DNA of 42,484 nucleotides from Bacteroidetes bacterium GWF2_29_10 (GCA_001768555.1 MEOD01000031.1:1-42484); one strand, 5' to 3'. Shown: positions 1,156-19,515, counted from the first letter of the stretch. Numbers and translations are program-made. Notes: generated from the sequence alone by a model not told the origin.

Positions 1156-3879
1156 TTAATGTTTTATAAACTTTTTATTAATTATCTGTTTGTTTAATGA
1201 ACTTTGATTTGCATTTATATTGATTATTGCAATGTATAAGCCTTTTGATAGTTTTGAAATATTTAATTGAATGCTGCTTTCTCCTCTTCCCAATTTTATA
1301 TCAACATTATTAATAGTTCGCCCAGTGATGTCTTTTATTTCAACATTTATTTTAGTATTAGCAAAATCGTTTAAAAAAGAAAACTCTATATATTCTCTTG
1401 CTGGATTGGGATACATATCAAGTAATATAACATCAGGTTCATTTAACATAACTTCTACTACGTCTGAATATCTATAATTTTTATAATAATTCAAATTTTT
1501 TAATCTGTAATATGATAATCCAATATATGGAGTTTTATCAATTAAAGAGTATAATTGAGATGTGCCAATATTTGGTTTACGAAGTAAAGTTCCTACTGAA
1601 TCAAAATCTACTGCATCATAACTTTTTTCCACAGTATAAAACTCGCTAAATAAATCATAAGGGGCTTCCCATTCTACTAGAACCCATTTATTATCTATTG
1701 GTGTAGCCATTATTTCGCATAATCCTATTTTTCTATGAGAAATTGCAGCCTGACATTGAGTATTTATAATAACTACAGTGTGGTTTTCGGCAGTACATCC
1801 ATTAGCATCAGTAATTGTAAGATAATAGTCTCCTGTTTCTTTTACACTTATAGTTTGAGATATTTCTCCTGTACTCCAAGAGTAAGAAGAAGCAACTGTT
1901 GATGATAAAGCAATTGAATCTACGCCATTAATAGAGTCATGTTCGAAATTACCAGGAGTTATATTTGCTACAGGTGCTGAAAATACATTTACTACAATAG
2001 GTGCAGAAAATACAGAGCATCCAACTTTTACAGAATAACTACCACTTGTTTTAACTGTAATTTCTTGTGTTGTTTCTGAGTTTGGAGCCCAGGAATAGAA
2101 AACCCCTGCACTTGCAGTAAGGACAACAGAATCTCCTTCACAAAAAGTAGTAGGTCCATCTGGGGTTATTGTAGCAGCAGCATTTGTTCCGACATTAATA
2201 TACCCAACAGATATTGCAGGTTCACTATATCCATTATTATCATTATAAACAGTAAGAGTAACAGTGTACGTCCCTGGAGAATTATATGTTATTATTGGAT
2301 TTTGAGCAGTAGAAGTATCTGGCGTTCCCCCTTCAAAATTCCAGAACCATTTTGTAGGAGAATTAAGACTTGTGTCAATAAAAGATACAGTTTCTCCTTG
2401 GCAAATGTTTGTGTCAGCTGTTTCAAAACCAGCAACAGGAGCACAAAGAGGTTTAAATACAGTCATAACAAAACCATCATCTTCACCTCCTAAGAAAAAC
2501 GACTGACAACGTCTTTGATAATTGCTTATGGAAGAAAAACCATCGTCTTTACCTCCTAAATACATATTTGTAAAATCAGGAGGAGGACAAATAACTTGAG
2601 CTATATTCCCCATTGTGAATCCGTCTTCTTCGCCTCCAAAGAAAAATGAAGAACAACTAATTTGTAATAATCTTGAAGTAGAGTGACCATCGTTTAGTCC
2701 TCCAAGATACATATCTGTAAACACTGGAGGAGGACATGCTATTTGAGCAATATTTCCTATTGTAAAACCATCCTCTTCTCCTCCAAAGAAAAATGAAGGA
2801 CATTTATTTTGTATTTTAGAATTTTCAGAACTTCCATGACCAATACCTCCATAATACATATCATCAGAAGAAGGCTGTGGGCAACCTAAAACAATATCAG
2901 AACCACTAAAACCATCATCTTCGCCTCCTAAAAAAAATGTAGGACATCTTTCCAACTGTTGATTAGAGCTTCCATATCCATCGGAAATACCACCAAAATA
3001 CATATTGTCTGGAGTAGGAGGATCGCAAATTATACTTAATTTTTCAACATAAAACCCATCTTCTTCTCCTCCCATAAAGAAATTAGGACAACGATAAATA
3101 TTTAATTCTTGTGAAGCAAAACTATTCTCCTCTCCTCCAAAATACATATTGTTTGGAATAGGAGGATCACATAAATATGTAGATGTAATCATATCAAACC
3201 CATTCCCTTCACCACCACCGGCAATAGGGCATATTCTAAGAATAGAATCTACTATAACATACCCACCTCCAGAAGTATTTACAGCTTGTATTTCATATTT
3301 TGCCCAAAGCCCATAACCATAAACAGAACTTAAGTTATAAAACGTTTTTTGTGTAGAATCTGATGATATATTTAATTTTGTTGAGTCAGTAACTCCATCT
3401 TTATTAGCATCCAATAATAATTGATATGTGAAAATTTCGCTACCCATTGTTGGTTTATCCCATTTTATACGTAACACATCATTACAAGTAACAAAAGATG
3501 CATCTCGTCTATTAATAGGAGTAGCTGGCAAAGTTGTAAAAGTTTCTTCATTACCATATGCCGTACCATCGGCATTTATTGCATAAGCTCTAATGTAATA
3601 TAATGTATTAGGAATTAAATTATTTAAATTGCTAACAAAAGCGCCTAAACCTGCACCATCATTAGTGCAATCAACAGATGGATTTGAAGAAGTCCCCCAA
3701 CATACACCTTTTGCTGTAACAGGGGAACCTCCTATGTCTGTAACATCTCCACCAGTAACAACAGAGCTAGTATCAATTAAGGATACTGCATCTGTAGTTA
3801 ATGTAGGTAATTGAGCTTTAATTACTACACTAATTATTAAAAAAATAAATAATATTATATGTTGCTTCCCATTTCGCAT
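1156..3879 (-). CDS. Secreted T9SS protein: fibronectin-like N-terminus, Cys/GG-DGF tandem repeats, PKD domain, C-terminal sorting domain
   Basis: 907 aa ORF; signal peptide; repeated C-x-x-FF-x-GGEEDGF / CPPP-x-x-x-x-MY-x-GG units; PKD-like 'VSFIDTSLNSPTKWFWNFEGGTPDTSTAQNPIITYNSPGTYTVTLTV'; C-term 'MYPNPAREYIEF...LSKGLYIA'. Confidence 0.85.
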   Translation of the reverse strand: MRNGKQHIILFIFLIISVVIKAQLPTLTTDAVSLIDTSSVVTGGDVTDIGGSPVTAKGVCWGTSSNPSVDCTNDGAGLGAFVSNLNNLIPNTLYYIRAYAINADGTAYGNEETFTTLPATPINRRDASFVTCNDVLRIKWDKPTMGSEIFTYQLLLDANKDGVTDSTKLNISSDSTQKTFYNLSSVYGYGLWAKYEIQAVNTSGGGYVIVDSILRICPIAGGGEGNGFDMITSTYLCDPPIPNNMYFGGEENSFASQELNIYRCPNFFMGGEEDGFYVEKLSIICDPPTPDNMYFGGISDGYGSSNQQLERCPTFFLGGEDDGFSGSDIVLGCPQPSSDDMYYGGIGHGSSENSKIQNKCPSFFFGGEEDGFTIGNIAQIACPPPVFTDMYLGGLNDGHSTSRLLQISCSSFFFGGEEDGFTMGNIAQVICPPPDFTNMYLGGKDDGFSSISNYQRRCQSFFLGGEDDGFVMTVFKPLCAPVAGFETADTNICQGETVSFIDTSLNSPTKWFWNFEGGTPDTSTAQNPIITYNSPGTYTVTLTVYNDNNGYSEPAISVGYINVGTNAAATITPDGPTTFCEGDSVVLTASAGVFYSWAPNSETTQEITVKTSGSYSVKVGCSVFSAPIVVNVFSAPVANITPGNFEHDSINGVDSIALSSTVASSYSWSTGEISQTISVKETGDYYLTITDANGCTAENHTVVIINTQCQAAISHRKIGLCEIMATPIDNKWVLVEWEAPYDLFSEFYTVEKSYDAVDFDSVGTLLRKPNIGTSQLYSLIDKTPYIGLSYYRLKNLNYYKNYRYSDVVEVMLNEPDVILLDMYPNPAREYIEFSFLNDFANTKINVEIKDITGRTINNVDIKLGRGESSIQLNISKLSKGLYIAIININANQSSLNKQIINKKFIKH

Positions 3880-3919
3880 AAATTGCTATATAATATGTTG
3901 TTTTACTACAATATTCATT

Positions 3920-6037
3920 TTAAAGTTTAATAAATTTCCATGTAAATAAATTTTTTCTAATATTTTTCTGTTTATTTTCAATGATATTAAATATTAAAAA
4001 ATATGGTCCACTTTCCATTTCTGAAACATCCAAAGAATTATGATTATCTCCTTTTCTAAGATTTACTTTCTCTGACATTAATATTCGGCCTATTACATCA
4101 ACTATTTCTATGTTTAAAATAGTACTATCTGTATCTGAATTAATAAGATAAGTAATTTTATTATCAACAGGATTAGGAAATATATTCCGAACTTTTATGT
4201 TTTTAGGATATATATTAACAGCAATATACCCCACATACTCACTTTTACCATCAAAATCTGTTTGTTTTAATCTATAATATGATGTTCCAAATACTGGTTT
4301 CTTATCATAATATTGATAAAATGACTTATTTTTTTTAGTTCCATTTCCTTTAACAGTAGCTATTATAGTCCAATTTTCATTATCTTTTGTTCTTTCTAAA
4401 GTATAAAAATCATTATTTTCTTCATAAAAAGTTTCCCATTTAGTTAAAACCCATTCATTGTTTATAGGAATACCTGAGAAATAATTAAGATTTATTCCTA
4501 AAGCGGCTTCATTACAAACTCCTCCTATCTTAACTTTTGCTTTCGAAGAGCGCTTAGAACATCCATTTACATCAACCGTTTCCACAAAATATGTTCCAGT
4601 GCTATTTACAACTATTGAGTCTACTGTTTCTCCATTAGGAGACCAGATATATGAAATATTTGTTTCTGTTTTTAAAACTATAGTATTATAATCAAATCCA
4701 TTAGTTGAAATTTGAGGTTTAATATTATTATCCATTAAAACAACGTTAACAGAATCAGCAGGCACATAGCAACCATCAACAGTAACCTTGTAGGTCCCTG
4801 TATTAAAAGCTGTTATAGACTGCGATGTTTGACCTGTTGACCAAGTATATGTGTGCCCCGCAGGAGCAGTTAATTCAACCGAACCACATTCACAAAATGA
4901 AGTAGGACCACTTGCTGTAATCGGATCTGCTGTTTTAAATCCAACTAATATAAAATCCGTTTTTCTAATAGTGTCACTTACTGAATCATTAGAAGCGATA
5001 AGCATAACATCATATAATCCAGAATCGGGATAATTTATAGAAGGATATTTACTTGTTGATGTGTCTGGAACTCCTCCTTCAAAGAACCAAGCGAAATTAG
5101 TATAATCATGCACAGTATATTCTGGAGAGAATCTAACACTTTCTCCCGTACAAACAGAATCTTCAGATGCAATAACATCCAAATCAGGACATGATTGAAA
5201 TAATAACCCTACAACAAAACCATCCTCTCTACCCCCTGCAAAAAAAGTATTGCATGTTAGTTGAATAAACCTATTTGCATTAAATCCATCGCTTTGACCT
5301 CCTTTATATAAATCAGAAAAAGGCGCTTCTGGACAAACAAAAAATATGGTATTACTTGCATTTGCTCCATCATATGTGCCTCCAGCAAACATCGATTGAC
5401 ATCGCTCTTGTATAGAATATGAAACTCCAAATCCATCACTTAAGCTTCCTTTATACATATCTGTAAATATTGGCTCTGGGCAATTAGAAATATTCACACC
5501 AATAGCATCATCTCCTCCATTATTTCCTCCTGCAAACATCAATTGACATCGCTCTTGTATTAAAGAACTGGACGTTTGTCCTATTTCTTTTCCTCCTAAA
5601 AACATATCTAAAAGTTCTATGCATGTTTCTATATGTTCTCCTAAAGCAAACCCATTTTCTTGCCCTCCACTAAACATTCTTATACATAAAGATTGAATAT
5701 ATTTATTTGTATTCTCCCCCATATCTTTTCCTCCTTTGTACATGTTTAAAAATGTTGGTGGAGGACATGGATATTTATAAAAGTTTACATCATGTCCATC
5801 TTTAGTTTTTCCTCCTAAAAACATTGATTGACATCTTATCTGAATTTGTTTCCCTATAGAAGCTTCTAACGATTTGCCCCCTTTATACATTCCCAAAGGA
5901 TTAGGTGATGTGCAAGGGTATTTATATAACAAGCATTCAAACCCACCAACTTGTCCTCCCGTATATTGGGAAAAAAGATTTATGGTATTTGTTAATAAAA
6001 ATAACATTAATATTATATTTTGAATGCCTTTATGCAT
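3920..6037 (-). CDS. Secreted T9SS protein with Cys/GG-DG repeats and PKD-like domain (paralogue of 1156..3879)
   Basis: 705 aa ORF; repeats 'CPPPTFLNMYKGGKDMGENTNKYIQSLCIRMFSGGQENGFA'; C-term 'IFPNPVDNKITY...MESGPYFLIF'. Confidence 0.85.
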   Translation of the reverse strand: MHKGIQNIILMLFLLTNTINLFSQYTGGQVGGFECLLYKYPCTSPNPLGMYKGGKSLEASIGKQIQIRCQSMFLGGKTKDGHDVNFYKYPCPPPTFLNMYKGGKDMGENTNKYIQSLCIRMFSGGQENGFALGEHIETCIELLDMFLGGKEIGQTSSSLIQERCQLMFAGGNNGGDDAIGVNISNCPEPIFTDMYKGSLSDGFGVSYSIQERCQSMFAGGTYDGANASNTIFFVCPEAPFSDLYKGGQSDGFNANRFIQLTCNTFFAGGREDGFVVGLLFQSCPDLDVIASEDSVCTGESVRFSPEYTVHDYTNFAWFFEGGVPDTSTSKYPSINYPDSGLYDVMLIASNDSVSDTIRKTDFILVGFKTADPITASGPTSFCECGSVELTAPAGHTYTWSTGQTSQSITAFNTGTYKVTVDGCYVPADSVNVVLMDNNIKPQISTNGFDYNTIVLKTETNISYIWSPNGETVDSIVVNSTGTYFVETVDVNGCSKRSSKAKVKIGGVCNEAALGINLNYFSGIPINNEWVLTKWETFYEENNDFYTLERTKDNENWTIIATVKGNGTKKNKSFYQYYDKKPVFGTSYYRLKQTDFDGKSEYVGYIAVNIYPKNIKVRNIFPNPVDNKITYLINSDTDSTILNIEIVDVIGRILMSEKVNLRKGDNHNSLDVSEMESGPYFLIFNIIENKQKNIRKNLFTWKFIKL

Positions 6038-10112: not shown

Positions 10113-10295
10113 ATTACCAATTCGCATGTATGGGTATATAAAAATCCGTGTAAATCCGCGTTGAGTAGCATCTGCGTCATCCACGTTCCATACACTTGGC
10201 AATCCCTTCCCTTCCAAACACCACATTTCAAATCCCAGAGGGATGGCATTATTGTAGAACCACAAGCGTTAGCCAGTGGAACAACACAAACAAAA
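10113..10295. repeat. Dispersed repeat R2, copy 1 (direct repeat with 14891-15092)
   Basis: 'attaccaattcgcatgtatgggtatataaaaatccgtgtaaatccgcgttgagtagcatctgcgtcatcc...ccatacacttggcaat...atttcaaatcccagagggatggcattattgtagaaccac...' matches 14891-15092 almost throughout. Confidence 0.9.
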
Positions 10296-10396
10296 TAAAT
10301 TTCCATCAAATTTGCACTGTCCTGTCAAAAGGCTAAATCCCTACTTATTTTCAATTTGTCACTATCGTATCAGATTGTCGCTGTCTTTTTAAACTT

Positions 10397-10484
10397 GCCC
10401 ATAACGCTACGCAGCTACCCGAAAGTGATGATTTCGTAACACGTCAACCAAACACAAACTTTGATATAGGTGTTGTTATGTGGC
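10397..10484 (-). other. attC-like foldback at 3' end of the STAND NTPase gene
   Basis: Inverted repeat GCCCATAAC (10397-10405) / GTTATGTGGC (10475-10484), 9 bp with one bulged base; contains the stop codon (10476-10478) of the NTPase ORF. Confidence 0.4.
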
Positions 10485-13187
10485 GTTATTTTTCGATAGT
10501 GCGTCTTTCAATTTTTGTCCTAATTCAGTTATTGTTGTCGGAGTCATTACTTTTGAAATATCATTGTCAAAACTAGCAGGATTTTCAATATATGAAATTT
10601 TATTTAATTTATAAATAAATGGATTTTGGTAGTTCTGTGGCATTTCTTCAATTACTTTTTCACAAACCTGTTTGCCAATGTCTCTTCTGTTAATTCTAAT
10701 TGCAATTTCAATGTAATGAGTCAAACCGTCTAACACTAAATTCCGGCAACTTGGTGACAAGGTCATTAGGTCTATATCCTTAACAACATTGAATAGGTGT
10801 CCACCAGGATATTTAAATATTTCTTTAATACGTTCTTTCTGTTCATTATGAAAATTGTCATACTCGGATTTTGATATTTCATTAAACCTAAGTTTGCTTT
10901 TAATTTCATCTCTTTCAGAAACCACCATTATTGATTTATAAGTGGTAAGAATTCCTAATAATTCTAAATAAGTTTCTTGATTTAATTTAGGTTTCGCAGT
11001 GAAAAAATCTTGGATAATTTGAATTGCAAGATATTTAGAGTCTACTGATGAATCAATCCAAGCAGATGTTACATATCTTTCAATATAGATAGGGTCTTTT
11101 TTGAAAATTTGAAAGTAGTCTTGATATAATTTAAGTGCTTTTTGAACTTTGCTTTTATAAGAAATCAAATAAACAGCAAAATTAATAAGAGCTGTTCTTT
11201 TAATATCATATGGAGTTTTTTCTCTATTTAGTATATAGCGATATTTGTTTTCAACCTCAGGTTCCGATTCAATGAGACGACTTGCGTCTGCGTTTTCAAG
11301 TAATGCAATTTCGGTTGGGGCTCCTTTTTCAGTATTTATTAAGTTAAATCTATTTGTAATATTCCCATCAAATTCAGGACCTTTATTTTGATAGTAGATT
11401 TTCATCAACTTATATATTTCGGGCGAATAAACCTTGAAAAAATCCTTGTCTTCAACTATAATAATTTTAAGTTTTATTAATTCATTCAACGAATTTTGAA
11501 ATTCATCCTCTTTGTCCTCTTTACTTAAAATAAATTTAAGATTGCCAAGTAAACCGGACAAATCGTTTTCTTCTACCAATAAACTAATACCTAAAAACAT
11601 ATTTTTAGCATCAGTTGAAAGGTAATCATATATTCTATCGTATAGAAAATTTATCGCCTCTTTTGTTGACTTAATTTCAGTATTTAGAGCATCAGTTAAG
11701 GTCCCTTTTTGGGCAGAAAATATTCCTAATTGAAGAATAAACAAAGGTCTTCCAGAGGTAATTTCAAAAACCTTTTTAACTATATCCTTGTTTTTTAATT
11801 CCTTTTTTAATTGTTCTATGTTGAAAGATGGGGTTTCATTTTTAATCGCCTCTTGTAAAAAAACAATTGATTCTTCCTCTGTTAACTCTTTTGTTTGTAT
11901 CTCTTCTCCTGTAATAAGGGTTGCAGCCCTTGTTGTTAAAACAACTTTATGATGATTTATATCAAGCTGTTTTATGAAAGAAACAATTCTACCTTTCTCA
12001 TCTTTAGTGAACGTTTCAAAGTCATCAATAATTATTAAAAGTTTACCAGAGTATTGAATAATTGGCTCTGTTGCAAACGAGGAATCATTAAAAAGTATTA
12101 GATTTATTTTTGAAACAATTCCTTCCAAAGATGAAATTCCATCTGCAATTGGCTTTATCTTACCTTGATAATAATTGTAGTATCTATCTTTTGCTGATAA
12201 AAAAATTATGTAGTCAAATTGTTTACGTTCTTGATTACATAAAATTTCACAAACTCTTTGAATAGAAGCTGTCTTGCCAACTCCACCGTGTCCCCAAATG
12301 GTAGCAAATACAGAAGCTCTATTTTTCTCCAAAAAATCGGTGACTTTTTTTGTTATTCCTATATCAATATATTTTTTGAAATTATTGTCAAACATATTAA
12401 TGACTGTTCCATTTGCAGATTTTCTCTTTATATTGTCGGTTGAAATTGAAAGTCTTTCAAATTCAACAACCTCTGAAGTAAAAAAAGCTGTTTTAAGAAG
12501 TCTATTAAATTTCGTTCTACCAGTTAACTTTTCTTCTATTGAACAGAATGTATAAAATTCAGATTCACTTTCGATTTTGATGAAAGGCGATAATCTTAAA
12601 TATTCATTATTTTTTGAGTATAAGTATATGTCACCAACATTGAAGGAGCAAATTCCCTTCGGACAAGTCCAAGCAAGGTATGTTGTACCATTGGACTTGT
12701 ATGAAATCCCTCTATAAGCTTCTTGGTCTTCTTTTGTTACTTTTATAATGTCCGCTTCTGCAAATATTATACAAGTTTCAGGCGTTTCAATTATTTCAAA
12801 AAAAGTTTCGAAAAAGTCTAAATAATTTTCTGTATCATCCTCAAACGAAAATCCGTGTCCTATTTTTTCATTTCTAAAGCTAGGGTATTCGTCAATGAAT
12901 TGATTTAATTTCTTTAGTCTTTTTGTTCCAAAGAACTCATTATAGGTATCTAGCTTTCTAATGATTGAAACAATTATTCCAATTGATGGTTTTAAGATAC
13001 AATTTACAACGTATTCTCTTTCGTCAATACTTATTTTTGTCCAGTTTTTATTCCATAAATATGATAGGATATAAATTAATAAAAATTCAAATTTAGATTG
13101 ATAATATACTCTAAGGTCCGATTTTTGTCCATCCGACTTTAAGAAATTAATTTTTCTGTTTATTTGGCTTAGTATATAATTATTCAT
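10476..13187 (-). CDS. STAND/NB-ARC-type NTPase with N-terminal RNxxxxH (HEPN-like) motif; putative antiphage/conflict protein
   Basis: 903 aa; Walker A 'IWGHGGVGKT' (12270-12293), Walker B 'KLLIIIDDFETF', sensor-like 'VVLTTRAAT', 'FDYIIFLSAKDR'; 'FRNEKIGHGF' (R105-H111; 12855-12875); alpha-helical C-terminal region. Confidence 0.8.
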   Translation of the reverse strand: MNNYILSQINRKINFLKSDGQKSDLRVYYQSKFEFLLIYILSYLWNKNWTKISIDEREYVVNCILKPSIGIIVSIIRKLDTYNEFFGTKRLKKLNQFIDEYPSFRNEKIGHGFSFEDDTENYLDFFETFFEIIETPETCIIFAEADIIKVTKEDQEAYRGISYKSNGTTYLAWTCPKGICSFNVGDIYLYSKNNEYLRLSPFIKIESESEFYTFCSIEEKLTGRTKFNRLLKTAFFTSEVVEFERLSISTDNIKRKSANGTVINMFDNNFKKYIDIGITKKVTDFLEKNRASVFATIWGHGGVGKTASIQRVCEILCNQERKQFDYIIFLSAKDRYYNYYQGKIKPIADGISSLEGIVSKINLILFNDSSFATEPIIQYSGKLLIIIDDFETFTKDEKGRIVSFIKQLDINHHKVVLTTRAATLITGEEIQTKELTEEESIVFLQEAIKNETPSFNIEQLKKELKNKDIVKKVFEITSGRPLFILQLGIFSAQKGTLTDALNTEIKSTKEAINFLYDRIYDYLSTDAKNMFLGISLLVEENDLSGLLGNLKFILSKEDKEDEFQNSLNELIKLKIIIVEDKDFFKVYSPEIYKLMKIYYQNKGPEFDGNITNRFNLINTEKGAPTEIALLENADASRLIESEPEVENKYRYILNREKTPYDIKRTALINFAVYLISYKSKVQKALKLYQDYFQIFKKDPIYIERYVTSAWIDSSVDSKYLAIQIIQDFFTAKPKLNQETYLELLGILTTYKSIMVVSERDEIKSKLRFNEISKSEYDNFHNEQKERIKEIFKYPGGHLFNVVKDIDLMTLSPSCRNLVLDGLTHYIEIAIRINRRDIGKQVCEKVIEEMPQNYQNPFIYKLNKISYIENPASFDNDISKVMTPTTITELGQKLKDALSKNNAT

Positions 13188-13217
13188 TGGTCAATTGTTT
13201 TTGTCTGTTTTAAATTT

Positions 13218-13272
13218 GCCCACAACTTGTATATATGTATCACAAAATTAGTCATATACAACTATTTTGGGG
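13218..13272 (-). other. attC-like hairpin between the NTPase and AbiC-like genes
   Basis: GCCCACAACTTGTATATATG ... TCATATACAACTATTTTGGGG: inner stem TTGTATATG/CATATaTACAA, outer stem GCCC(A)/TGGGG, separated by unpaired bases. Confidence 0.4.
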
Positions 13273-13350
13273 TGTATAGGAGCCATAAAATATCCTTTCT
13301 ATTATTTTATAAATCATCAAATGGGCTTTTTTATATTTTAAATACATATC

Positions 13351-13359
13351 GCAAATTTA
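13351..13359 (-). promoter_or_regulatory. Possible Bacteroidota -7 element in leader of the NTPase gene
   Basis: Reverse strand TAAATTTGC fits TAnnTTTG; conserved in the second leader copy. No convincing -33 TTTG at the expected spacing. Confidence 0.3.
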
Positions 13360-13573
13360 CATTTTTATTTTAATTAATCATTTTTATTTATTCAATTTCT
13401 CAGTCTGTTGATAATATCTTATCCCCGTCTTCTAGCATTGGCGGTAACGGTGGCAATATGGTCTGAAAGGGATTGCTGAGAACTTCACTATCAATATGCA
13501 ATGAAATTGATGTGGGTGAAGAGCTTCGCATACCACTAATGCCCTTTTTGGCTATATTGCATGTTAGGCAAAG

Positions 13574-14488
13574 TTAATTTATTTCATCTTCTTCATATGT
13601 CATTGAAAAAAAATCCTTTGGATTATAGTCACCTAAATAACCAGATGGTATATTTTTAATCAATTCATACCTTTCAATGTATTCACTTTCTTTCCACTTT
13701 TTCCCAAATCTAGAAACAATATTAAAAAAGAAGACATAAAGTTCTGGGTTAGATAATTGAGCTCTTAAAATCTTTATGTATTGTTTCTTCTCTTCTATTG
13801 TTAAATATTGGTCGCTATCAATTAATTTAACCGCATTATATAAATTTCGGAAATAGCTACTTAAACTTGTTTGATTTGTTCTTCCAATCTTTTTGGAATC
13901 AAAGTTTTTTGCTTCAAGCAACAATTTGGCAATTTCATTCCCTTGTTTATATCTAGACAGTTTATTATCAGTGAACTTCTCCCAATCTTTATCTATCCCA
14001 TAATAAAACGCTACATAGACAATATCAATGATTTCATCATCGCTTAGTTTTAATTTTAAATCACTTTTGATTTTGTTTACAACACCAAATAATTCAATTA
14101 ATTGAAGTTTGAAAATTACAAAGGCTCTTCTGCCTTCAATTTTATCTTCTTTTCTAGCTGGGTCAATATGCGAAATACTTAATTGCTTTACATTCTCAGT
14201 ATGATAATCAAGCATTTTAAAGAAATTGCTACCCGTTTGACTTTTTTTATTGTCTATGTTTTGCTTAATCAATGTTACTAAAATCAGCAGTGTACTAGTT
14301 ATGGCAAACAATGACCCAATAAATCCACCAAAAAAATCACCAAACTTTGATGCTAAATCAGGGTTAATTTGAAATGAAGTATTATAATACGCTTTATTAA
14401 AAACTGTGAAAAAGAATATTATAAATCCAACTAATCCCAAAAAAGCTACAATTATCCATAAAATTCGAATAGTTCTTATTAATGCCAT
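13574..14488 (-). CDS. Membrane protein resembling putative phage abortive infection protein (putAbiC family)
   Basis: 304 aa; two N-terminal TM helices, 'FGDFFGGFIGSLFAITSTLLILVTLIKQ' then soluble helical domain with 'FFKMLDYHTENV'; architecture and motifs as I recall for the putAbiC family. Confidence 0.6.
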   Translation of the reverse strand: MALIRTIRILWIIVAFLGLVGFIIFFFTVFNKAYYNTSFQINPDLASKFGDFFGGFIGSLFAITSTLLILVTLIKQNIDNKKSQTGSNFFKMLDYHTENVKQLSISHIDPARKEDKIEGRRAFVIFKLQLIELFGVVNKIKSDLKLKLSDDEIIDIVYVAFYYGIDKDWEKFTDNKLSRYKQGNEIAKLLLEAKNFDSKKIGRTNQTSLSSYFRNLYNAVKLIDSDQYLTIEEKKQYIKILRAQLSNPELYVFFFNIVSRFGKKWKESEYIERYELIKNIPSGYLGDYNPKDFFSMTYEEDEIN

Positions 14489-14531
14489 ATTATCATAGTT
14501 TTAAGTGTTGCTAATTGTTTCTTTTAATGTT

Positions 14532-14585
14532 GCCCACAACTTATATATATGTGCCATAAACTTGGTTCTATACAACCATTTGGGC
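14532..14585 (-). other. attC-like hairpin upstream of the AbiC-like gene
   Basis: GCCCACAACTTATATATA ... TATACAACCATTTGGGC: outer stem GCCCA/TGGGC and inner TTATATA/TATACAA-type stem with an intervening unpaired segment. Confidence 0.4.
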
Positions 14586-14646
14586 ATATAGGAACCATCA
14601 TATATTTATTTTTATAAACCATCAATGGACTTTTTAAATACATATC

Positions 14647-14655
14647 GCAAATTTA
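14647..14655 (-). promoter_or_regulatory. Possible Bacteroidota -7 element in leader of the AbiC-like gene
   Basis: Reverse strand TAAATTTGC (TAnnTTTG), same position in the leader repeat as 13351-13359. Confidence 0.3.
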
Positions 14656-14890
14656 CATTTTTATTTTAAGTTAATCATTTTTATTTATTCAATTTCTCAG
14701 TCTGTTGATAATATATCGTCCGTCTTCTAGCATTGGCGGTAACGATGGCGGTATGAGACCATTGCAAAAAGTACATTTTAATAATTTCGTTATTAAATCT
14801 CACTAATTTTTTAGATTTTGCTATTGATTCATCAACAATTTATCACACAATAATAATATGTAGGGGCAATCCCTTGCTGTTGCACACATT

Positions 14891-15092
14891 ATTACCAATT
14901 CCCATGTATAGGTATATAAAAAATCCGTGTAAATCTGCGTTGCGTAGCATCTGCGTCATCCGTGTGCCATACATTCTCGCCACATCTACATCCGTGTTCC
15001 ATACACTTGGCAATCAACACAAATTTCAAATCCCGGAGGGATGGCATTATTGTAGAACCACCTACGTTAGTGGGTGGAACAAAACAAACACA
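14891..15092. repeat. Dispersed repeat R2, copy 2
   Basis: 'attaccaattcccatgtataggtatataaaaaatccgtgtaaatctgcgttgcgtagcatctgcgtcatccgtg...ccatacacttggcaatcaacacaaatttcaaatcccggagggatggcattattgtagaacc...'. Confidence 0.9.
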
Positions 15093-15255
15093 CCGAATTC
15101 CTAGCGCCGAAGGTGCAACATATTCTTTTTTAAATTATAAAAAAATGGTCATACTATTTCAGGCATTTACATAAAAAAAGCAAAATTTATTAAAAAAAAT
15201 TAACAACGAATTATTAATTTTAACGAATTTAGCAAAAATTTAAATATCAATAAAT

Positions 15256-18972: not shown

Positions 18973-19515
18973 ATGAAATATTTTTTATTAAAATTATTTA
19001 GGTTAAACAAATATAAAGGCTCGCCTCCTGAAATAATAGAAATAGACAAACCTATTAAAGTTCTGGGCGTTAGCAAACGAACTAATAAAAAAACCGTTCT
19101 TAAAGATGTTGCCGAGCTAAGTGATAGATATAAAAACGCAAAAAGTAAAAAATTAATTAAATATAAAAAAGAACCTTGGGCTTTCGTTGTTATAAGCAAA
19201 AATTTTGACAAAAAAGATAGTTGGGATTATATTATTGGTGACGTTGTTGCTAATGAAAGTAATTTTGACAATGATTTGACCTATTTTGAAATACCACCTT
19301 CAAATTATGCAATATTTAAAATAACTTTTTCTAGTCGTTTAAACTTAAGAGATAATATAAGTAGCACTAAAAACTACTTTTATAAAAAATGGTTGCCTTA
19401 TTCTAGTTATCGACATGATGACTCAGCTTTATCTGATTTTGAACTTCATGATATAAGATGCCTTGACAAAAAAAATCCCGAAATAGAACTATGGTTTCCA
19501 ATTGCAACTTATTAA
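18973..19515 (+). CDS. GyrI-like/AraC effector-binding-like small protein
   Basis: 180 aa; 'PIKVLGVSKRTNKK', 'YFEIPPSNYAIFKI', 'KKWLPYSSYRHDD...FELHDIR...EIELWFPI' as in GyrI-like domains. Confidence 0.6.
   Translation: MKYFLLKLFRLNKYKGSPPEIIEIDKPIKVLGVSKRTNKKTVLKDVAELSDRYKNAKSKKLIKYKKEPWAFVVISKNFDKKDSWDYIIGDVVANESNFDNDLTYFEIPPSNYAIFKITFSSRLNLRDNISSTKNYFYKKWLPYSSYRHDDSALSDFELHDIRCLDKKNPEIELWFPIATY

Follow-up and report, generated by a model that had tools for sequence, protein, structure and literature searches.

The 42,484-nucleotide contig MEOD01000031.1 of Bacteroidetes bacterium GWF2_29_10, analysed here at full length (the window), carries on its minus strand two single-gene units, encoding a putAbiC-domain protein and a STAND NTPase, whose edges bear recurrent short motifs that an earlier note had read as noncanonical borders of cassettes in a mobile gene-capture system. 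Our results, all of them comparative, support that proposal and lead us to conclude, with considerable confidence, that the locus is a degraded member of an integron system found across the Bacteroidota. In intact copies, a tyrosine recombinase would excise cassettes as circles and insert them at an attI site (TATAWAYDA|GTTR), as the reuse of exact boundaries suggests. It would recognise the folded single strand of attC, a hairpin of ~135 nt formed by R''-L'' and L'-R', and cross over after the G of GTT; what is left of R' would then belong to the following cassette and match the R'' box by which that same cassette ends. Transcription of the cassettes would start at a promoter lying between the recombinase gene and attI. 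In the window, the recombinase gene appears to have been deleted to its last ~8 codons and the integron head duplicated, with one cassette, putAbiC or STAND NTPase, behind each head copy (Table 1).

The three boundary motifs lie exactly where they had been described (minus strand; C at 14540, B at 13226, A at 10405) and do mark cassette edges, but they are not equivalent: B and C are sites of attI type, each preceded by an integrase remnant. Each closes a duplicated module of ~200-250 bp that the earlier note had overlooked, the copies starting with GTTACCGCC (at 14743 and 13448), containing blocks of 80-100% identity and agreeing at 82% across 245 columns. In several genomes a BLAST search with this head module matched the 3' end of integrase genes; in one of them (G485:C38) an integrase end with attI behind it stands in the same order as in the module (87% and 77%). 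For the 3' ends of the cassettes we used a covariance model, R1, built from attC sites with the window excluded, which gave two matches in the whole genome, both at this locus. One sits directly behind the putAbiC stop, and its R'' box is the GCCTAAC at 13569-13563 that had already been singled out as attC-like; the other falls on the very coordinates of a pairing proposed earlier (10397-10484), overlaps the STAND NTPase stop and measures ~79 instead of ~127 nt from R'' to R'. The pairings proposed behind C and B (14532-14585 and 13218-13272) are no attC. The profile of the integrase family described below matched nothing in this genome. Just two PF00589 proteins are encoded there, and by score or by grouping they are XerD and XerC; a linked recombinase is present in relatives and absent from this assembly, the window keeping only the 3' end of the gene. 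With two attC and no integrase in the assembly, the window fits the definition of a cluster of attC sites lacking an integrase (CALIN, at least two attC), from which it differs in that its attC are of a new type and relics of the integrase end remain. We regard the locus, on its sequence, as a decayed integron that is probably no longer mobile by itself.

In the 2.8-Mb genome the pattern GTTRTGGGCAA...ACAAT has three copies, all in this locus and all on the minus strand. A stricter motif, GTTRTGGGCAARTKTAAAAA, was found in 88 stretches of 257 Gb of genome contigs, overwhelmingly metagenome-assembled genomes of Bacteroidota, compared to ~4 expected by our own arithmetic for even base composition; this excess and the confinement of the copies to one locus of the genome show that the motif is not a product of chance. 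On the other contigs the motif is followed by a gene, then by the reverse complement GCCCATAAC and, usually 117-119 bp further, by the next copy. In related loci different genes are enclosed by identical boundaries, and surveyed genome-wide the copies fall at the edges of genes, so that the conditions which the earlier note had named for its refutation did not arise. Among 239 pairs of sites with alike sequence over 100 bp or more downstream, the upstream sequence was unrelated in 231 and the likeness began right after the box, which is how mobile cassettes with exact 5' ends would look. The earlier note had taken GTTRTGGGC as R'; it is indeed noncanonical with respect to GTTRRRY, but GTTATGGGC is just one of 78 different R boxes among 155 attC and hence not a system consensus, which rules out a single conserved word as signature of the system. 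A search of IMG/VR with the motif pattern returned one match only, so that by this pattern the feature is not phage-borne.

The two ends of a cassette proved to be related by pairing. In 20 of 27 loci, the exact reverse complement of the first cassette's own 9-nt box was present 0.2-3 kb downstream, whereas boxes of other loci would give 0.39 such matches, and R'' lay 126-128 nt from the next GTTR in most of these loci. An independent scan of 1.1 Mb by the L stem alone recovered 155 attC, with none in shuffled sequence; the R''-R' spacing was 126-128 nt in 136 of them and their orientation within loci was uniform (124:0). Because these sites were chosen by their L stem, R-box matching could be assessed independently (unlike the R-box covariation in alignment A2, whose sites were picked by R box): among 75 cassettes bounded by two L-stem sites, 53 were complementary to their own 5' end at all six variable R positions, compared to 0 of 73 for a differing box of the next cassette. 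In 65 cassettes the main open reading frame ran on the same strand as attC, in 4 on the opposite one. On 35 aligned sites the L stem was 89.9% paired, with compensatory changes at all 18 pairs and a covariation score of 0.802, against 0.182 +/- 0.018 after shuffling and 0.08-0.14 with slid partners. Except at one pair, hardly any one-sided (G-T) changes were seen, which would favour a hairpin selected as DNA and not as RNA. By pairing and covariation, these sites are thus imperfect palindromes with R and L boxes, and the units that they close consist of a gene with a 3' attC hairpin, in one orientation and with variable cargo; as few as 6 of the 155 R boxes fit the canonical GTTRRRY.

The recombinase family that heads such arrays was found through a search with TIGR02249, which it matches below the profile cut-off at positions 2-180 and 238-315, skipping 181-237. 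Its members (~350-390 aa) are devoid of the ~41-residue IntI-specific domain: the spacing from KDR to HxLRH is 58-59 residues in 26 of 32 (73 in three, the rest not being measurable), as opposed to 100 residues in all 19 measurable canonical IntI of the same phylum. As the additional domain around patch III is regarded as a defining and necessary feature of IntI (PMC9668308, citing Messier and Roy 2001), the family falls outside canonical IntI. An AlphaFold2 model (mean pLDDT 81) found its best structural match in VchIntIA (2a3v, E 6e-17), followed by XerA, and predicts an extra N-terminal domain. In alignment A1, comprising sixteen sequences, residues 1-90 form an N-terminal alpha/beta domain (WSxxxKxWYIP) that neither IntI nor Xer has and that perhaps serves in attC recognition. 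With XerC/D as outgroup, the family and IntI appear as sister groups; we do not claim this relationship, as the order collapses once IS91-linked and XerA-like recombinases join the tree. In most of the latter, 58-59 residues likewise separate KDR from HxLRH (66 in one), and their sequences are akin to those of the family, but they are without the N-terminal extension and no attI/attC arrays were seen with them.

In the arrays, the first boundary follows shortly after the end of the recombinase gene. An adjacent attI, with consensus TATAAACAA|GTTA, is carried by 61 of 107 integrase loci (38 of them non-redundant), mostly 85-110 bp behind the recombinase stop codon, while the nucleotides after GTTR vary between loci. 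The Bacteroidota -7 promoter box TANNTTTG occurs in 18 of the 38 spacers between int and attI (1.75 expected), in most of these ~90 bp before attI, where it may drive expression of the cassettes.

A survey with the A1 profile placed the recombinase family in 151 of 295 sampled Bacteroidia genomes (51%), and model R1 placed attC in 97 of 119 (82%); R1-type attC are present in other classes of Bacteroidota as well. The recombinase co-occurred with attC, being present in 64 of 96 attC-positive and in 1 of the 20 listed attC-negative genomes (p 2e-7). The named cultured carriers are plasmids of Chryseobacterium sp. SNU WT5 and C. oryzae. The cargo comprises DRT/AbiP2-type reverse transcriptases, restriction enzymes, GmrSD, Schlafen-type helicases, aminoglycoside adenylyltransferases, LinB-like and transpeptidase domains, and many unknowns.

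Akin to class 1 and chromosomal integrons (IntI/attI/attC), the present system combines a tyrosine recombinase and an adjacent attI with co-oriented single-gene cassettes that end in R''-L''/L'-R' hairpins and meet at G|TT, and it has the blaVEB cassette in common with class 1. It differs in that the recombinase lacks the IntI additional domain and has an N-terminal extension of ~90 aa, that the R box is a cassette-specific GTTRNNNNN, that the length of attC is nearly fixed at ~135 nt and that the integrase gene lies upstream of, and is co-directional with, the array. One could nonetheless suppose that these are remnants of canonical integrons, in which an ordinary IntI placed the cassettes and the consensus merely drifted, given that canonical IntI is present in 89 of 296 genomes of the phylum, that blaVEB at attI1 shows IntI1 to accept such a cassette and that TIGR02249 matches the new recombinases, albeit in two pieces. 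We consider this improbable: almost no Bacteroidia genome contains a full TIGR02249 match despite the prevalence of attC, the linked recombinase has 41 residues fewer from KDR to HxLRH, and it heads the arrays even in genomes that also have a canonical IntI, as it does, to the exclusion of canonical IntI, in those arrays of other classes that were read with a visible head; the rarity of GTTRRRY boxes points the same way.

The nearest prior art is provided by relatives of the recombinase (36-39% identity) that stand at the head of SMI1/KNR4, Imm26 and Tdi1 gene arrays on plasmids of Bacteroides and Parabacteroides, and it lowers our claim to novelty. These arrays are rAID-like, agreeing with the recombinase-associated immunity-gene arrays (rAID clusters) of Bacteroidales reportedly described by Ross et al. 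in 2019, and they resemble the present system in having a related recombinase upstream of co-directional genes and repeated intergenic sequences. That our arrays are merely relatives of these clusters in gut Bacteroidales, rather than integrons, seems to us more doubtful still, since the rAID-like loci have immunity-gene cargo, short palindromic intergenic sites resembling AACNNCTAAACGNNGTT and no R1-type attC, whereas the cargo of the present arrays is not dominated by immunity genes. The weakest explanation, a promoter/leader module that recurs by chance, was duplicated with two defence genes and contains no recombination site, could account for two near-identical heads that simply drive expression, but it is largely refuted, as the module is homologous to integrase ends, the 3' sites are homologous to attC (an independent model match at 5e-9) and roughly half of Bacteroidia genomes show this anatomy again.

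Several observations weigh against reading the window as a decayed integron of this system. In both window cassettes the match between the R'' box and the cassette's own 5' box has been lost, and the attC of cassette 2 is ~48 nt short. Both attC fold as single-stranded DNA, but only moderately, with z-scores of -1.2 and -0.9 on the cassette strand, compared to -2.65 on the opposite strand for the attC of cassette 1. The assembly is 92% complete, so that an integrase elsewhere in the genome could be missed, and the co-occurrence of recombinase and attC is measured against 20 listed attC-negative genomes only. The putAbiC gene was also sought as a cassette elsewhere, and none of its four homologues in other genomes (0/4) is flanked by attC. 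The cassette genes may serve in defence, but the AbiP-like match of the putAbiC protein is weak and the STAND NTPase has no PADLOC match.

Table 1. Features of the relic in the window, and related loci elsewhere.
Feature	Sequence	Position	Strand	Basis
Dispersed repeat flanking the relic, copy 2	window	14891-15099
Probable remnant of attC L' arm (CATACCGCC ATC|GTT) before head 1	window	14747-14755	-	by eye only, no model match
Truncated integron head 1, from cassette-type boundary GTTACCGCC to attI G of G|TT	window	14541-14743	-
Promoter-like TAAATTTG in head 1	window	14655-14648	-
Integrase 3'-end remnant in head 1, degenerate copy	window	14635-14612	-
attI-type site C, ACATATATATAA|GTTGTGGGC, entry boundary of cassette 1	window	14532-14552	-	attI consensus from 38 integrase loci
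Cassette 1 gene, putAbiC-domain protein, 304 aa	window	13574-14488	-	Pfam PF16872, E 4e-22; PADLOC AbiP, 7e-8
attC of cassette 1 (R'' GCCTAAC ... R' GTTACCGC)	window	13441-13569	-	covariance model R1, 44.4 bits, E 4.9e-9
Truncated integron head 2, duplicate of head 1, from boundary GTTACCGCC	window	13227-13448	-
Promoter-like box of TAAATTTG type in head 2	window	13359-13352	-
Integrase remnant ..KSPFDDL* in head 2	window	13332-13307	-
attI-type site B, ATACATATATACAA|GTTGTGGGC, entry boundary of cassette 2	window	13218-13240	-
Cassette 2 gene, STAND (NB-ARC) NTPase, 903 aa	window	10476-13187	-	Pfam PF00931, E 2e-8
attC of cassette 2, shortened	window	10397-10484	-	covariance model R1, 20.5 bits, E 0.003
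Boundary A, start of third cassette (GTTATGGGCAAG...), remainder lost	window	10373-10405	-
Dispersed repeat flanking the relic, copy 1	window	10113-10301
blaVEB locus	L288 (NZ_CP084417.1)	3001-4760
blaVEB locus	L292	2500-3578
blaVEB locus	L294
tet(X) locus	L301	3070-5116
tet(X) locus	L304	2312-3836
rAID-like locus, Bacteroides/Parabacteroides plasmids	L291	2947-6785
rAID-like locus, Bacteroides/Parabacteroides plasmids	L323	5944-13037

The L' arm remnant before head 1 resembles the 3' arm of complete attC, such as ...CATACCGCCAACC|GTT in locus L238. Both flanks of the relic belong to a dispersed repeat with 22 copies or parts genome-wide, which rules out the 190-bp direct repeats as an insertion footprint. 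About 4 kb from the relic and outside any cassette, at 18973-19515, lies a gene for a Cass2/GyrI-like small-molecule-binding protein (Pfam 'integron-associated effector binding').

The RTG within GTTRTGGGC opens a short frame at the window sites 10405, 13226 and 14540 (MGKFKKTATI*, MGKFKTDKNN*, MGNIKRNN*), at other loci (MGKFKKRHNGMTQTREPP...) and in many cassettes. It may encode a leader peptide or only reflect a conserved A-rich DNA motif after R'; as that motif is present also behind boxes without RTG, the DNA-level motif is likelier than a leader peptide (MGKFKK...). An Rfam scan gave no attC-type match, only the DUF805 RNA (RF03081) inside one cassette array (L236:3200-3267). A leader that by eye resembles this RNA stands behind several GTTATGGGC boundaries (L147, L154, L159), so that the DUF805 RNA may be a cassette-borne leader.

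The same boundary and attC are found in the environments of the ESBL gene blaVEB and of tet(X). Plasmids of Klebsiella and Aeromonas, IncC among them, carry a fragment of the family recombinase that ends slightly less than 100 nt before GTTAGCGGT and blaVEB-3. In class 1 integrons, ~1 kb of blaVEB homology begins at the same G|TT (GTTAGCGGT), there behind attI1. An R1-type attC (E 2e-11) closes the cassette, and the R'' box of this site, ACCGCTAAC, matches the start of the same cassette. In Acinetobacter, a fragment of the family recombinase, an attI-like palindrome and GTTATGTGC lie upstream of tet(X3); from GTTATGTGC onward tet(X2) and tet(X3) are identical at 10/10 positions per block of ten, compared to 1-4/10 before it, and in Bacteroides tet(X2) is flanked by two R1-type attC, with the matching R'' GCACATAAC. 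To judge from these sequences, blaVEB and tet(X2)/tet(X3) are cassettes of the Bacteroidota type, with an exact GTT boundary across contexts, and their loci offer natural examples of a single cassette that follows upstream sequences unrelated to each other. In a Bacteroides plasmid, aadS likewise has an attC behind it. The 135-bp 'repeated elements' reported around blaVEB (PMC3668210) have the length of an attC; the plasmid locus that we searched contains no such direct repeat, and we did not retain them as attC. We found no source linking blaVEB or tet(X) to a Bacteroidota integron, nor any description of the present system in the open PMC literature. In Bacteroidetes, only integrases without cassettes had been reported, and then one complete integron, in Salinibacter (PMC9024848, IntegronFinder 2.0); taxon-specific attC models exist for 11 taxa, none of them Bacteroidota (PMC8352920).

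In light of these findings we lean, with appreciable reservation, towards a broader interpretation: the system would be a separate, phylum-wide integron lineage that acts on folded attC without the IntI domain, in which cassette-specific R''/R' pairing confers identity, which existing detectors built on GTTRRRY and the IntI domain would miss, and from which blaVEB, tet(X) and perhaps aadS would have passed into class 1 integrons and the plasmids of Acinetobacter or enterobacteria. If so, cassette capture would be common in the phylum, the rule that recombination in integrons depends on the IntI additional domain could be put to a direct test, and the clinically important blaVEB and tet(X) would gain a concrete origin and route.

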